Below are positions 1,243 through 7,121 of a stretch of DNA of 64,000 nucleotides, in pieces (position 1 is the first letter of the stretch; each line of letters begins with the position of its first letter). The notes under the pieces were generated by a model. The model searched no databases. It had not been told where the DNA came from and saw only the letters and a program-made list of their open reading frames with translations. This stretch comes from Myxococcales bacterium (GTDB taxonomy: Bacteria > Myxococcota_A > Polyangia > Palsa-1104 > JAEUJZ01), in NCBI GenBank assembly GCA_016794505.1, contig JAEUJZ010000037.1, positions 310,001 through 374,000 of the forward strand, in the 5' to 3' direction. The position numbers and the translations under genes are program-made.

Positions 1243-4131
1243 ATGCGCTCTGTCGCTGTGCTGATCATCCTGGGCCTGCTGCTTGCCATGGGCTGCAGCG
1301 CCCCGGTCGACGGACCAGAGCGCCCTCCCCCAGAGCGCGTGCGCGCGTACAGCGGCACATGGGAATATCGCTATGGCGAGTCGCCCATCGCGCCCGACGG
1401 TCGCTTTCTGTGGTCGCTGCCCGATGAGGCCCGCAGCGATCCAAGCGCAGGCTGGCGCCCGACGCAGCAGACGCACAACCCACCCGGCCGAAGCGGCCAC
1501 GCGTATCTGTGGTTGCGCACGCGCGTGCCGCCCCTTGCCGCGGATCCATGGGGCGCATCGCGCCTGATCCTGCAGCTTGACTTCGTCGAGCAGAGCTTCG
1601 AGGCATTCCTCGATGGGCAGATGATCGAGCGCTTCGGTGTGCTCGATGGGCCCACAGCGCGCCGTTTTCCCGGTTTTCAGAACCACTTTCTGCCCCTGCC
1701 CGAGCGTGTAGCCGGCCGTCTGCTGGTGATCCGTGTGTACTCGCCGCATGCCCGCATCGGGTTCCCGACGCCACAACACCTGGGCGAGTACACGCATGTG
1801 CTGTCGGCCGTAGTGCAAGAAGGCCTGGGCCCCGCGCTGATCGGTGTGCTGCTCTTGACCGCTGGCTTGGCCTTGTTGTCGCTGTTTCTCGTGCAGCGCA
1901 GCGAGACCGACCTGCTTCTGTACGGCCTGTGCTTGCTGAGCTTGGGCGTGTATGTCCTGTGCCGCTCGACCATCCGTTCCTATTTCATATCCGCCGCGGT
2001 CGTCTGGTACTACGTCGAGCTAAGCAGCCTGTGCTTCTCAGGCGGGTTCTTGTCGCTGTTCGTGGCGCGCATGCTGGGGCGAGACCGACTCAACCTGCTG
2101 CCAGCTTTGGCTGCCCTCTTCTTTTTGTACTTCGCCTTCGCCAGCTTGTTGGTGATCAGCGGACGCGTTCACATCGTCAACACATCCGAGATTCTGAAGT
2201 ACCTGTTCCTGCTGTTCATGCTGCTGGTGATCGGCAAGACGCTGGCCAGTACTCTGCGCGGCGAGCTGTATGGCCGCATGCTCAGCGTGGGCCTGCTCAT
2301 CGCCGCGGCCTTTGCCACGTGGCAGGTCTTGCAAGAGATGCGGGTGCTGCCGCGCACTGGCTTTTTGGGTCACTATCCGGCGGCGCTGTTCGCGCTGACG
2401 CTGGGCGTGATCTTGTCGCATCGCGTGCGTCGCGCGCAGCGTCAGTTGGCCGACTATTCGACACTGATGCAGCTCAACTTTGAATCGGCGCGCACGCGGT
2501 CCCCGCGGCAGCATGCCCACCGCGTGCTGGCTGAGCTTCTGCGCATGCTGCAGGCCGAGCGAGCGCTGCTGTTTACCTGCGATGACGACGGCAATGCGGT
2601 GAAGCTCTTGGCCGCTCGCGATGCGCGCGGTGACGTGTCCTCGGCCGTTGGTGAAGAACATCCGTCGATCCCGGCGCCGGCTCGCCATGCTCTTGCGACG
2701 CGTCAGGTAACCGCCGAGCAGCGTGTGGCCGATGACTCGCTGGGAGCGCGCGTGGCCGCCGATCTCGGCATGCGCTTCAGCGAGCTTGCAGTGCCGCTTC
2801 TGGTCCATGATCAGCTGCTGGGTGTGCTGTATCTGCACGACAGCGTGGTCGGCATCGGCCACAGCGAGCGCGTGTTGGTGCAGGGACTCAGTCGGCAGAT
2901 CGCGCTGCACTTGCTGGGCGCGCGGACTAGCACGCTAGAACAGCAGACACAGCACGCACAGCGCTTGCTCGACGAACAGCAGCAGCTCTTGCTGCAGGTG
3001 GGTCGCTTAGCGCGCGGTGATCTGCAGTCGCCGATCACGGTGCCAACGGAAAGTCAGCTCAGCGCGCTGGCGGGTCTTCTCGATGGCATGCGCCGCGATC
3101 TGGCCGCCAAGATAGCCGAGCTTACGAGCAGCCGCGTGGCAGCACAGAAGCTCAATGAAGAGCTGCGCTTTCAGATCGAGCAGCGCATTCAGCGGCTCTT
3201 AGATCAGGCGCTAAGCAGCGGCAGCAGCAGCCATCCGTTCCAGCGCAGTCAGTGGCTAGAAGCCGGAGAGCTTCTGGGCGATGGCTACCGCGTCGTCGGC
3301 GTGCTCGGCCAAGGGGCCAGTGGCAGCGTCTATGACGTCGAGCGCCTGCGCGATGGTCGCCGGCTGGCCGCCAAGGTGATCTCGGCCAAGGCCCAGAAGG
3401 AAGCCATCCTGCAGTTCGCTCGCGAAGCGCAGATTCTGGCGCGACTGAGCGATCCACATGTTGCGGCCATCGTCGATGTCGATCTGACAGATACGCGCCT
3501 GCTGTTTCTGGTGATGGAACGGGTCCCAGGCACACCGCTCAGTCAGTGCATGGATCGCTATCGCGATGTGCGGGGTGCGTGCCGCGTGCTCTCGCAGATC
3601 GCAAGCGGCCTGCGCACCGTGCATGCCCACGGCGTCGTCCACCGCGACCTGAAGCCCGCCAATGTCTTGGTGGCGCAGGTCGACGGCGAACCACAAGCCA
3701 AGCTGGTCGACTTTGGGCTTTCGACCTTGAGCCAGCAGGAAGCCGTGGCGCGCGAAGCCCGCGAGCAGCCCGGTCTGCTGGTCGGTTCGCCGATGTATGT
3801 GGCGCCTGAGCTGTACGTCGGCTCGCACCGCGCCCAGCCGCCCTCGGACATCTTTAGCCTTGGCGTCATCGCCTATGAGCTGTTGATCGGTGTCCTGCCG
3901 TTTTCTCGGCCGCCGGTTGTCAGTCGCTATCGCGGTGAGGCGCTGCAGCTTCGGTCTGTGCAGTCCCTGCGCAGCGATCTGCCCGATTCTTTGTCGGCCC
4001 TGATCAGCCGCTGCTTGGCGGAAGATCCTGCGCAGCGCCCCAGCGCCGACGAGCTCTTCAGCGCGCTTGCGACCTGGGCAACCCATGACGACAGCCACGC
4101 GAAGCAGCCCGCAGGAGGCCACGCCCGATGA
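1243..4131 (+). CDS. 7TM-DISM-type receptor fused to GAF and active Ser/Thr kinase domain
   Basis: The protein has 962 aa. Starting at the ATG at 1243 gives a clean lipoprotein-like signal (hydrophobic run ending AMGC, Cys18). Residues 35-190 look like an extracellular beta-sandwich of the 7TMR-DISMED2 kind, with a FLDG turn and a WLRT strand. Residues about 193-400 contain seven or so hydrophobic helices. A GAF domain spans about 427-565 and a coiled coil about 566-660. The eukaryotic-type kinase domain covers about 680-940, with a Gly loop (GQGASGSV), Lys711, HRDLKPAN at 800-807, DFG at 823-825 and an APE-like APEL motif, so it should be catalytically active. It probably senses an extracellular ligand and phosphorylates cytoplasmic targets. 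It overlaps the next, paralogous gene by 4 nt (ATGA), implying translational coupling and equimolar synthesis. Confidence 0.88.
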   Translation: MRSVAVLIILGLLLAMGCSAPVDGPERPPPERVRAYSGTWEYRYGESPIAPDGRFLWSLPDEARSDPSAGWRPTQQTHNPPGRSGHAYLWLRTRVPPLAADPWGASRLILQLDFVEQSFEAFLDGQMIERFGVLDGPTARRFPGFQNHFLPLPERVAGRLLVIRVYSPHARIGFPTPQHLGEYTHVLSAVVQEGLGPALIGVLLLTAGLALLSLFLVQRSETDLLLYGLCLLSLGVYVLCRSTIRSYFISAAVVWYYVELSSLCFSGGFLSLFVARMLGRDRLNLLPALAALFFLYFAFASLLVISGRVHIVNTSEILKYLFLLFMLLVIGKTLASTLRGELYGRMLSVGLLIAAAFATWQVLQEMRVLPRTGFLGHYPAALFALTLGVILSHRVRRAQRQLADYSTLMQLNFESARTRSPRQHAHRVLAELLRMLQAERALLFTCDDDGNAVKLLAARDARGDVSSAVGEEHPSIPAPARHALATRQVTAEQRVADDSLGARVAADLGMRFSELAVPLLVHDQLLGVLYLHDSVVGIGHSERVLVQGLSRQIALHLLGARTSTLEQQTQHAQRLLDEQQQLLLQVGRLARGDLQSPITVPTESQLSALAGLLDGMRRDLAAKIAELTSSRVAAQKLNEELRFQIEQRIQRLLDQALSSGSSSHPFQRSQWLEAGELLGDGYRVVGVLGQGASGSVYDVERLRDGRRLAAKVISAKAQKEAILQFAREAQILARLSDPHVAAIVDVDLTDTRLLFLVMERVPGTPLSQCMDRYRDVRGACRVLSQIASGLRTVHAHGVVHRDLKPANVLVAQVDGEPQAKLVDFGLSTLSQQEAVAREAREQPGLLVGSPMYVAPELYVGSHRAQPPSDIFSLGVIAYELLIGVLPFSRPPVVSRYRGEALQLRSVQSLRSDLPDSLSALISRCLAEDPAQRPSADELFSALATWATHDDSHAKQPAGGHAR

Positions 4132-7121
4132 GCCGCATGAGCCATGCAGCCGCACAGGCGTGGGCCGGCCTTCGTCGCTGGCGCGCGGTCCCTGGCGTGA
4201 CGTCCTATCGCAGGCTTGCGACGCTCTGCGGCCTGCTGGTCTTGGCGGTGATGAGCTGTCGCAGCGCAGAGCTCAGCAGCGACGTCCCCGTGACCCAAGG
4301 CATCGCGCCCTATGTCGGTGCCTGGCAGTACCGGTATGGCGAATCACCCGTACTTCCCGACGGAAGCCAGGCCTGGTCGCGCGATGCGGCACCCAGCGCC
4401 GCCTGGCAGAACACGCAGCGCCTGCACAACCCACCAGGCCGCAGCGGCCGCGCCGATCTGTGGCTGCGCACATGGCTCAGCGGACCGGCTGCCGTCGACC
4501 CCACGCTGTTTTTGCACGAAGTCGATCAGTGCCTCGAAGCATTTCTCGATGGCGAGCGCATCGCGCGTTTCGGCCCGATGCAGGGGGATGCACAGCGCTT
4601 CATTGCCAAGCGCCCGATCTATCTGCCCTTGGGCTCACAGCCGACGGGCAAGCTGCTGACCTTGCACCTGCGATCGGTCTATTCCGATATCGGACTGATC
4701 CGGCCGCCACTTTGGGGCGGACGCGCCGAGCTGTTTGCAGATGCCATCCACAAAGGGCTGCCGTTTCTGATTGTGGGCTTGATTGCCTGGGTGCTGGGCG
4801 CAGGCGTGCTGGGCCTGTTTCTGCTGCAGCGTCGCGAGCGCTTGTACCTTTTGTACGCCGTGCAGTGCCTGAGCATCGGCGCCTATCTGCTGAGCCGCTC
4901 GCAGGCGCGGGCGTATCTGTTCGATCACCCGGCGCTGTGGCGCCTGATCTTGGTGGCTTCGTTCTGCCTGATCAGCGCGTCGATGTGTGCCTTCATCGCG
5001 CAGCTCTTCGACGACGGCTGGTCGCGCTTCATGCGCGGGATGGGCGTGGCCAACGCGCTTTTGTTCTTCCTGGGCATGCTGGGCACGCTGACCGGCGTCA
5101 TTCACTTGGAGCTGTTCCTAAAAGCCTCGCTTCTGTTCTGGCTGCCCTTTTCTGTGGCCATCTATGGCGCAGCGATCCATGGCCTTTTGCGTGGCAACGC
5201 GGACGCGCGCATCCTCGCCTTGGGTCTGCTGGGCACCAGCCTGCTTGCCGTGCCGCAGGTGCTGGTCGCGCTGCACATCCTGCGCATGGAATTCGATGTG
5301 CGCGCACTCACCGGCATCGTCTTCATCGGCGCCATGGGGACGATCTTGGTCCGGCGCTATCGCGCGTTCTTGCAGCGCCTGGGTGACTACTCTGCCGTGC
5401 TGGGAACCAGCCTGTCGTCGACGCAGCACAGCGGCAGCCAAGAACACGCGGACAGCACGCTGCAGGCCCTGCAGCGACTTCTGCAAGCCGAGCGCGCCGT
5501 GCTGTTTCTGTGCGATGAGTCGACCGGCGGCCTGCGCGTGCTTGCGGCGCGCACCGCCCAAGGCCGACTGAAGGATGCCGCTGCCGCCACCGCGGGCTGC
5601 GATCCAGTCACGCTGGATGCCGTTGAAAAGAAGCGCCGACCGGCCATGCGTCAGCGTCTTCGTCGCAACCAGGAAACCCCGTCATCGCAGGCCCAAACCC
5701 AGAGCGTGATGGCGGCCCCGCTTCTGGTCCAAGGCCGCCTGTTGGGCGTCGTGTACCTGGAAGCGTCGGCCAGTCGCCGCGAGTTTCAGAACGAAGATCT
5801 CGAAATCCTGATCGAGCTCGGCAACCACGTCGCGCTGACCTTGACCGCCCAGCGCGCCGATGACTTGGAAGAACAGAGCACGCATACCAAGCGCAAGCTC
5901 GATGAGCAGCGCAGCCTGCTGGCCGCAGCAGCCCGCCTGGCGAAGGGCGAGCTTCAGACCCCCGTTCCCATCGACGAAGGTCACGAGCATGCCCCCTTGG
6001 CCCGCGCCATCGAAGACATGCGGCGCGATCTTTTGGCCAAGCTGCGGGCGCTGCAAGAAAGCCACGCCGCCGAACAGCAGCTAAACAGCGATCTGCGCCA
6101 CCAGCTTGGCCGGCGGCTGCTGCAGGTCAGTCAGCACGGCGGCTTGTCCGATGTTGCGCTCGACGAATCGCAGCGCAGTGATGGCACCGCTGGCTCGCGC
6201 GACGCCCCCACGCTGCCACCGGGAGCTCCCTTGGGGCGCAACTATCGCGTGGTGACGCAGCTTGAAGTTCACGGCGGCTATCAGCTGTACCAAGTGCAGC
6301 GCAGCTCGGATCAAAAGCGCTTTGTCGCCAAGGTGGTGTCGAACGCCGCCCACCCTGCCCTGCTCGCTCGCTTCGCGCGCGAAGCCAAGCTGCTCACCGT
6401 CCTTCGCGATCCCTACCTCGACAGCATCGTCGATATCGATCAAGCGCCGGATGGCACCGCCTTTCTGATCTGCGAGCGCCGCCCCAGCCGCACGCTGCGC
6501 CACCTGCTCAGTCTGCCGCGCACGCTCGATGCGGCCCTGTGCATCCTCGCTCAGCTTGCGGCCGGGCTGCGTGTGCTGCATCAACACGGCATCGTCCATC
6601 GCAACCTGCAGCCCCAGAGCGTACACGTCAGCCTCGACGATGCGCCCTACCGCGTGCAGCTTGTCGACCTGGGCCTCGCAGCCGTGACAGCGGGTGGGCA
6701 CCCCGAGCTCGCCGACTTGACCTCGACCGCAGCGCAAGCCGCCATCCACGCGGACGACGTCCTGGCCGAAAGCACCGACGAGGCACGCCAGATTCGCCGC
6801 TATCGCGCCCCCGAGCTCGCCGCTGGGCTGCACGCCGCAACGCCGCAGTCGGATGTGTTCGGCTTCGGCTTGCTGGCGCTTGAGCTCTTGGCCAGCGAGC
6901 GCAGCCAGGCCGAGATCCCGGCGTCCGAGACCGCACCGCCAACGCCACAGGGCAGCGCGGCCCGTCTGTCGACGATCCCTGGCCTCGACGCCATGCTGGT
7001 CTCGCGGCTTGCTGCCTGCCTGCACCGCGAACCGGCACAGCGCCCCAGCAGCGAGGTGCTGTACAGCGCGCTCGCCAGCTATCTACCCACGCCGCCTTCC
7101 GCTCCGCACCGCGCAGGCTAA
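4128..7121 (+). CDS. Paralogous 7TM-DISM/GAF receptor with a pseudokinase domain
   Basis: The protein has 997 aa and the same architecture as its upstream neighbour: a lipoprotein-like signal (AVMSC, Cys44), an extracellular domain with the same HNPPGRSG and FLDG motifs, 7TM at about 205-412, GAF at about 438-578, a coiled coil, and a kinase-like domain at about 699-988. The VAIK-type Lys735 is kept. The Gly loop is degraded, HRDLK has become HRNLQ (catalytic Asp to Asn826, Lys to Gln828) and DFG has become DLG (Asp847). A catalytic Asp replaced by Asn normally abolishes phosphotransfer, so this is most likely a pseudokinase. Being coupled to the active paralogue by ATGA, it may form a heteromeric receptor or act as an allosteric partner; this is inference. 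Confidence 0.88.
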   Translation: MSRMSHAAAQAWAGLRRWRAVPGVTSYRRLATLCGLLVLAVMSCRSAELSSDVPVTQGIAPYVGAWQYRYGESPVLPDGSQAWSRDAAPSAAWQNTQRLHNPPGRSGRADLWLRTWLSGPAAVDPTLFLHEVDQCLEAFLDGERIARFGPMQGDAQRFIAKRPIYLPLGSQPTGKLLTLHLRSVYSDIGLIRPPLWGGRAELFADAIHKGLPFLIVGLIAWVLGAGVLGLFLLQRRERLYLLYAVQCLSIGAYLLSRSQARAYLFDHPALWRLILVASFCLISASMCAFIAQLFDDGWSRFMRGMGVANALLFFLGMLGTLTGVIHLELFLKASLLFWLPFSVAIYGAAIHGLLRGNADARILALGLLGTSLLAVPQVLVALHILRMEFDVRALTGIVFIGAMGTILVRRYRAFLQRLGDYSAVLGTSLSSTQHSGSQEHADSTLQALQRLLQAERAVLFLCDESTGGLRVLAARTAQGRLKDAAAATAGCDPVTLDAVEKKRRPAMRQRLRRNQETPSSQAQTQSVMAAPLLVQGRLLGVVYLEASASRREFQNEDLEILIELGNHVALTLTAQRADDLEEQSTHTKRKLDEQRSLLAAAARLAKGELQTPVPIDEGHEHAPLARAIEDMRRDLLAKLRALQESHAAEQQLNSDLRHQLGRRLLQVSQHGGLSDVALDESQRSDGTAGSRDAPTLPPGAPLGRNYRVVTQLEVHGGYQLYQVQRSSDQKRFVAKVVSNAAHPALLARFAREAKLLTVLRDPYLDSIVDIDQAPDGTAFLICERRPSRTLRHLLSLPRTLDAALCILAQLAAGLRVLHQHGIVHRNLQPQSVHVSLDDAPYRVQLVDLGLAAVTAGGHPELADLTSTAAQAAIHADDVLAESTDEARQIRRYRAPELAAGLHAATPQSDVFGFGLLALELLASERSQAEIPASETAPPTPQGSAARLSTIPGLDAMLVSRLAACLHREPAQRPSSEVLYSALASYLPTPPSAPHRAG

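Follow-up and report, generated by a model that had tools for sequence, protein, structure and literature searches.

The window, a 64,000-nucleotide stretch of DNA, comes from a Myxococcales genome of 9.2 Mb in 191 contigs. Near its start, on the forward strand, are two adjacent genes: gene A (1243-4131; 962 amino acids), which encodes a receptor with a canonical Ser/Thr kinase domain, and gene B (4128-7121; 997 amino acids), which encodes a receptor with a predicted pseudokinase domain. The stop codon of A overlaps the start codon of B in an ATGA at 4128-4131, and an AGGAGG at 4113-4118, inside A and nine bases 5' of the B start, is the likely ribosome-binding site of B. Because the gene upstream of A is divergent and the gene downstream of B starts 141 bases past the B end, A and B look like a two-gene operon. 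Judged from this ATGA-coupled arrangement, the impaired paralogue would be produced together with its active-type sister. When the sequence was re-read, the reading frames, coordinates and residue numbers of the original prediction proved correct, as did its description of two paralogues overlapping by ATGA, which are also sisters in a tree (see below).

The two proteins share the domain order sensor-7TM-GAF-HAMP-kinase, and both match the Pfam families 7TMR-DISM_7TM (PF07695), GAF (PF01590) and Pkinase (PF00069) above the curated cut-offs. The 7TM domain scores 34.2 bits in each protein against a cut-off of 29 (A residues 199-392, 1837-2418; B residues 221-397, 4788-5318), and seven helices are seen in the AlphaFold2 (AF2) model of B. 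Next come the GAF domain (A residues 425-557, 2515-2913; B residues 441-572, 5448-5843) and the kinase domain, which scores 160 bits in A (residues 682-939, 3286-4059) and 55 bits in B (residues 695-997, 6210-7118). The 7TM, GAF and kinase domains had thus been placed correctly in both proteins, but the supposed coiled coil before the kinase holds a HAMP-like segment. In B this segment (residues 595-635, 5910-6032) is below the Pfam cut-off (21.7 bits against 25, E 2.6e-4); a HAMP match is present in 14 of 20 homologues, with a best E of 2.7e-8. The linker of A and B at residues 595-700 also carries a conserved helix motif before the kinase domain, LNxELRxQIxxRS (for example B residues 650-664, 6075-6119). 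This motif occurs in nearly all these receptors, even where the 7TM domain is missing (as in Nannocystis, L197), and may be a shared dimerisation or signalling helix.

The N-terminal assignments are weaker. The sensor region of B (residues 58-203, 4299-4736) is recognized by alignment only, and its earlier label as DISMED2-like is a weak one: Pfam matches neither DISMED2 nor DISMED1 in A or B, DISMED2 is absent from the list of 25 families matched by 20 homologues, and the AF2 model is too poor in this part to judge. The predicted lipoprotein signal is likewise weak, since the lipobox is imperfect in both proteins (LAMGC in A, AVMSC in B) and at that position the orthologues from Polyangium lack a Cys.

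Receptors of the 7TMR-DISM type usually have histidine kinase, GGDEF or phosphatase outputs. A and B resemble them in the 7TM domain and differ in the undetected DISMED2 and in a Ser/Thr kinase output behind GAF and HAMP. Such an output had been thought unusual in itself, but it recurs: of 20 kinase homologues that were aligned, 17 have a match to the 7TMR-DISM_7TM family (at E values up to 1), and there are two further 7TM-Ser/Thr-kinase receptors in the window's genome (contigs C184 and C42) and several in its relatives. Fusions of this kind are therefore a recurrent feature of the Myxococcota.

The kinase domain of A is canonical, with HRD at residue 800 and DFG at residue 823. In B, the catalytic loop reads HRNLQPQS (residues 824-831, 6597-6620), so that the HRD motif has become HRN826, the catalytic Lys is replaced by Gln828 and the catalytic-loop Asn by Ser831. 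The Phe of DFG is replaced by Leu848, giving DLG (residues 847-849, 6666-6674), and the Gly-loop is lost (G718Y, V720L). Lys735, the alphaC Glu752, the HR of HRD, Asp847, Gly849, Pro895-Glu896 of APE, Asp909 and Arg972 are all retained. The alignment bears out every change in B that had been reported (Asn826, Gln828, DLG and the lost Gly-loop, with Lys735 kept); that list was correct as far as it went, omitting Ser831. These losses exceed chance, because 45 other kinases are nearly invariant at the same positions (Asp at 826 and Asn at 831 in all 45, Lys at 828 in 44). B keeps 22 of 41 near-invariant kinase columns, and these are the structural ones, while the catalytic set is lost. HRD, the loop Asn and DFG are all present in A and in 18 further complete homologues, which come from more than 10 genomes; in two of these homologues the catalytic Lys has become Arg.

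The degenerate domain is still predicted to fold as a kinase. AlphaFold, with 46 sequences, returned a complete kinase fold for the B domain (pLDDT 89.1, pTM 0.88); the full-length AF2 model of B, built from 7 sequences, has a mean pLDDT of 58.9 and is poor for both sensor and kinase. The best bacterial match among solved structures (Foldseek) is 6b2q, an M. tuberculosis PknA/PknB entry, with a TM-score of 0.80 on the target and an rmsd of 3.8. The Hanks-type receptor kinases PknA, PknB and StkP are the closest solved kinase structures to B by both sequence and fold, but they have the catalytic residues that B has lost; to our knowledge, none of them is a 7TM-GAF-HAMP receptor. The proposed contrast between an active kinase and a pseudokinase paralogue thus holds at the level of alignment and model, with A canonical and B very likely a pseudokinase that has presumably lost phosphotransfer activity. 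Nucleotide binding by B would still be possible, because Lys735, Glu752 and Asp847 are kept. The same three residues could be taken to mean that B is a weak or unorthodox but active kinase, and HER3, which is classed as a pseudokinase, does have reported trace activity about 1000-fold below that of HER1 (PMC3014569). In B, however, the Gly-loop, the HRD Asp, the catalytic Lys and the Asn have all been lost together, and ILK, whose catalytic loop has lost a comparable set of three residues (to Ala, Asn and Ser), is inactive (PMC3014569); we regard residual catalysis by B as highly improbable.

The constraint on the rest of B bears on whether its pseudokinase is part of a working receptor. A and B share about 35% of their residues, and a tree of non-kinase columns joins them as sisters (support 97/95), a grouping to be taken with caution because the branches are long. 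Both are traced to an old tandem duplication within this lineage of myxobacteria. In a domain-by-domain comparison with the orthologues that Polyangium has in single copy, A and B show similar identities in the sensor (40% and 41%, respectively), 7TM (33% and 29%), GAF (27% and 34%) and HAMP-coil (38% and 36%) regions. In the N- and C-lobes of the kinase, the values are 56% and 45% for A and 33% and 27% for B. Drift in B is thus confined to the kinase domain, with the remainder of the receptor about as conserved as A, which argues that B has been retained as a receptor with a predicted pseudokinase and is not a dead gene. A pseudogene created by sequencing error was rejected, because the losses are scattered along a single open frame whose codon periodicity resembles that of A; the G+C content of B by codon position equals that of A.

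The low kinase identities could instead mean that the kinase domain of B is a decaying remnant, with B kept only for its sensor and GAF domains or heading for loss, and the restriction of B to a single genome among those examined would fit such decay. Yet the 997 codons of B contain no stop or frameshift even though the branch leading to it has accumulated about one change per column, and the structural kinase residues are kept in a fold predicted with high confidence. We regard decay as distinctly unlikely, and the argument below returns to B as a retained pseudokinase receptor.

Conserved synteny of the pair, which had been proposed as a check, is not seen. In 58 genomes of the class and the GTDB r220 contigs, where the window's genome is the sole member of its genus, neither a tandem pair nor a B-like kinase was found outside the window's genome; only single genes were present. 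Four Polyangium species each have a single intact gene, each genome of genus g2 carries one GAF-type copy, and single-copy GAF-type receptor genes also occur in MAGs. No orthologue of B was detected in Polyangium, in g2 or in the other genomes examined.

The best explanation as a whole, to which we give about an even chance of being right, is that A and B are co-translated sister receptors in which B is the non-catalytic partner of A. In the proposed mechanism, A and B would be translated from one two-gene message, and both would sense the outside through the N-terminal domain and the 7TM bundle and the inside through GAF. A would relay the signal as a Ser/Thr kinase. B would have given up phosphotransfer while keeping its kinase fold, the metal-binding Asp847 and the pair formed by Lys735 and Glu752, and it is this combination that makes a non-catalytic partner its most likely role. 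Pairing could occur through the shared HAMP and helix segments and the kinase surfaces, with B allosterically activating A, restraining it or serving as its scaffold; B would add its own sensor input and a kinase-shaped surface, and A would supply the chemistry. A heterodimeric receptor is plausible, although both the pairing itself and the direction of control are matters that we infer. The ATGA coupling with its Shine-Dalgarno sequence, the sister grouping, the selective catalytic loss, the predicted fold and the constraint outside the kinase domain all favor this explanation. Against it count the occurrence in one genome only, the sister support on long branches and the 35% identity between A and B, which is low enough that their interaction surfaces may have diverged.

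B might also work without A, as a homodimeric pseudokinase sensor to which a phosphatase, a substrate or some other kinase binds, in which case the operon would only reflect the duplication. Full sensor and linker regions are kept in both proteins, and possible partners abound: the window's genome contains 203 HRD-x-KP catalytic-loop sequences (2 in the control), and very large kinomes are usual for myxobacteria. The tight ATGA coupling, however, favors production of A and B in equal amounts and their assembly, and we consider independent action of B unlikely.

For the partnership of A and B, the nearest analogue in logic is HER3 (ErbB3), a catalytically impaired receptor able to activate its sister (PMC3014569). 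With HER2 it shows the same arrangement of an impaired receptor beside an active one, acting as an allosteric partner (PMC3014569). The HER proteins are of unrelated architecture, are tyrosine kinases and form a demonstrated heterodimer, whereas the heterodimer of A and B is a prediction. The most specific version of the model, an obligate heterodimer in which a 7TM pseudokinase allosterically controls its active twin as an independent bacterial counterpart of HER2/HER3, is accordingly held only tentatively and may well not be correct. Among bacteria, the consulted part of a 2025 review (PMC12599244) lists the Ser/Thr pseudokinase families ActPs1-3, GLW, CP1, DYD and DLHK, some of them membrane-anchored. 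These families resemble B in combining a kinase fold with degenerate catalytic motifs, but B differs in keeping the Lys and the DFG Asp, and none of them is presented in that part of the review as a 7TM-GAF receptor that has an active paralogue for a partner. The same text presents bacterial Ser/Thr pseudokinases as largely unexplored experimentally. An operon of an active receptor kinase and its impaired sister would offer a compact model for the recruitment of a kinase to a non-catalytic controlling role after duplication.

Alignment of the relatives revealed a separate phenomenon at the catalytic loop. In genomes G001, G003, G004 and G005, four of five GAF-type receptors are broken at HRD, and a PF00069 scan of G001 found many kinases whose match either ends at model position 123-129 or does not begin until position 118-126. 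For eight of these kinases, both halves lie on the same contig and strand with 0.2-5.4 kb of unrelated DNA between them. The orthologous GAF-type receptor is interrupted at its catalytic loop by different DNA in three related species (L053 in G004, L054 in G001 and L011 in G005, where the insert runs out at the contig end).

One set of inserts (L053 in G004; L130, L132, L135, L137, L140, L146 and L147 in G001) measures 0.2-5.4 kb, sits at HRD or LKPD codons and has flanking repeats of 7-13 bases. Several of its ends hold TTCCGTCG or CCGACGGAA, and its cargo consists of ordinary genes (cysN/cysD-like, ABC-F-like, AAA); no recombinase was seen at these loci. L053 contains two identical 898-base units in perfect tandem, ending in GTTCACAGAG. 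Several of the relatives are apparently short-read MAG assemblies, and so single contigs may be artefacts, possibly including this tandem. A group II intron at the broken kinases found no support, there being no Rfam match. Assembly chimerism was judged unlikely on three counts: sigma54-activator domains of G001 are unbroken at their own repeated motifs, chimeras between kinases would yield full-length kinases, and a search with an element end alone leads to kinase flanks.

The other group of inserts, unrelated to this set, is marked by ends that are conserved and by a serine recombinase (PF00239, PF07508), which explains this group and not the first. Elements at HRD codons were located in G001 (L136, L144, L227-L231, L237, L238 and L240) and G005 (L243), and the recombinase is found at E<1e-30 in 4 of 58 genomes, namely the window's genome, G001, G004 and G005. 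A search with nothing but the left end of the element showed six complete left ends in G001, every one of them directly next to codons for HR-D/E and each in a different kinase. The window's genome has two elements with both flanks present, one of about 12.3 kb between the kinase halves (L272; contig C191, 14000-32500) and one of about 15.5 kb (L273; contig C154, 49000-67000). When their flanks are joined over a shared GA, with which the Asp codon of HRD begins, intact GIVHRDLKPDN and NIVHRDLKPGN are restored in frame. That the insertions are genuine is supported by their recurrence across genomes and by these joins, which keep the frame exactly.

Related recombinases also occur elsewhere. Those at L244 (G004, contig C14) and L254 (G001, contig C99) are 71% identical to the kinase-targeting recombinase, lack its N-terminal part and adjoin no kinase. 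The window's genome has 30 related serine recombinases, the further copies being about 33-38% identical to the kinase-targeting one, and most of the distant copies examined there do not adjoin a split kinase.

Multi-targeting large serine recombinases are already known, and the main text of a survey of them does not contain the word 'kinase' (PMC10083194). Our literature search found no case of a serine integrase in a kinase gene, and the elements at HRD codons are possibly more novel than the receptor pair. In this family of myxobacteria, serine-recombinase elements land in the catalytic-loop DNA of Ser/Thr kinases, so that mobile DNA switches kinases off and, by exact excision, might switch them on again. 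In G001, the element of L238 (contig C71, 1655-11274) occupies the HRD of one kinase whose C-lobe stops again at VKPDK after the right end of the element; a second insert appears to begin there, and this kinase seems to have been hit twice.
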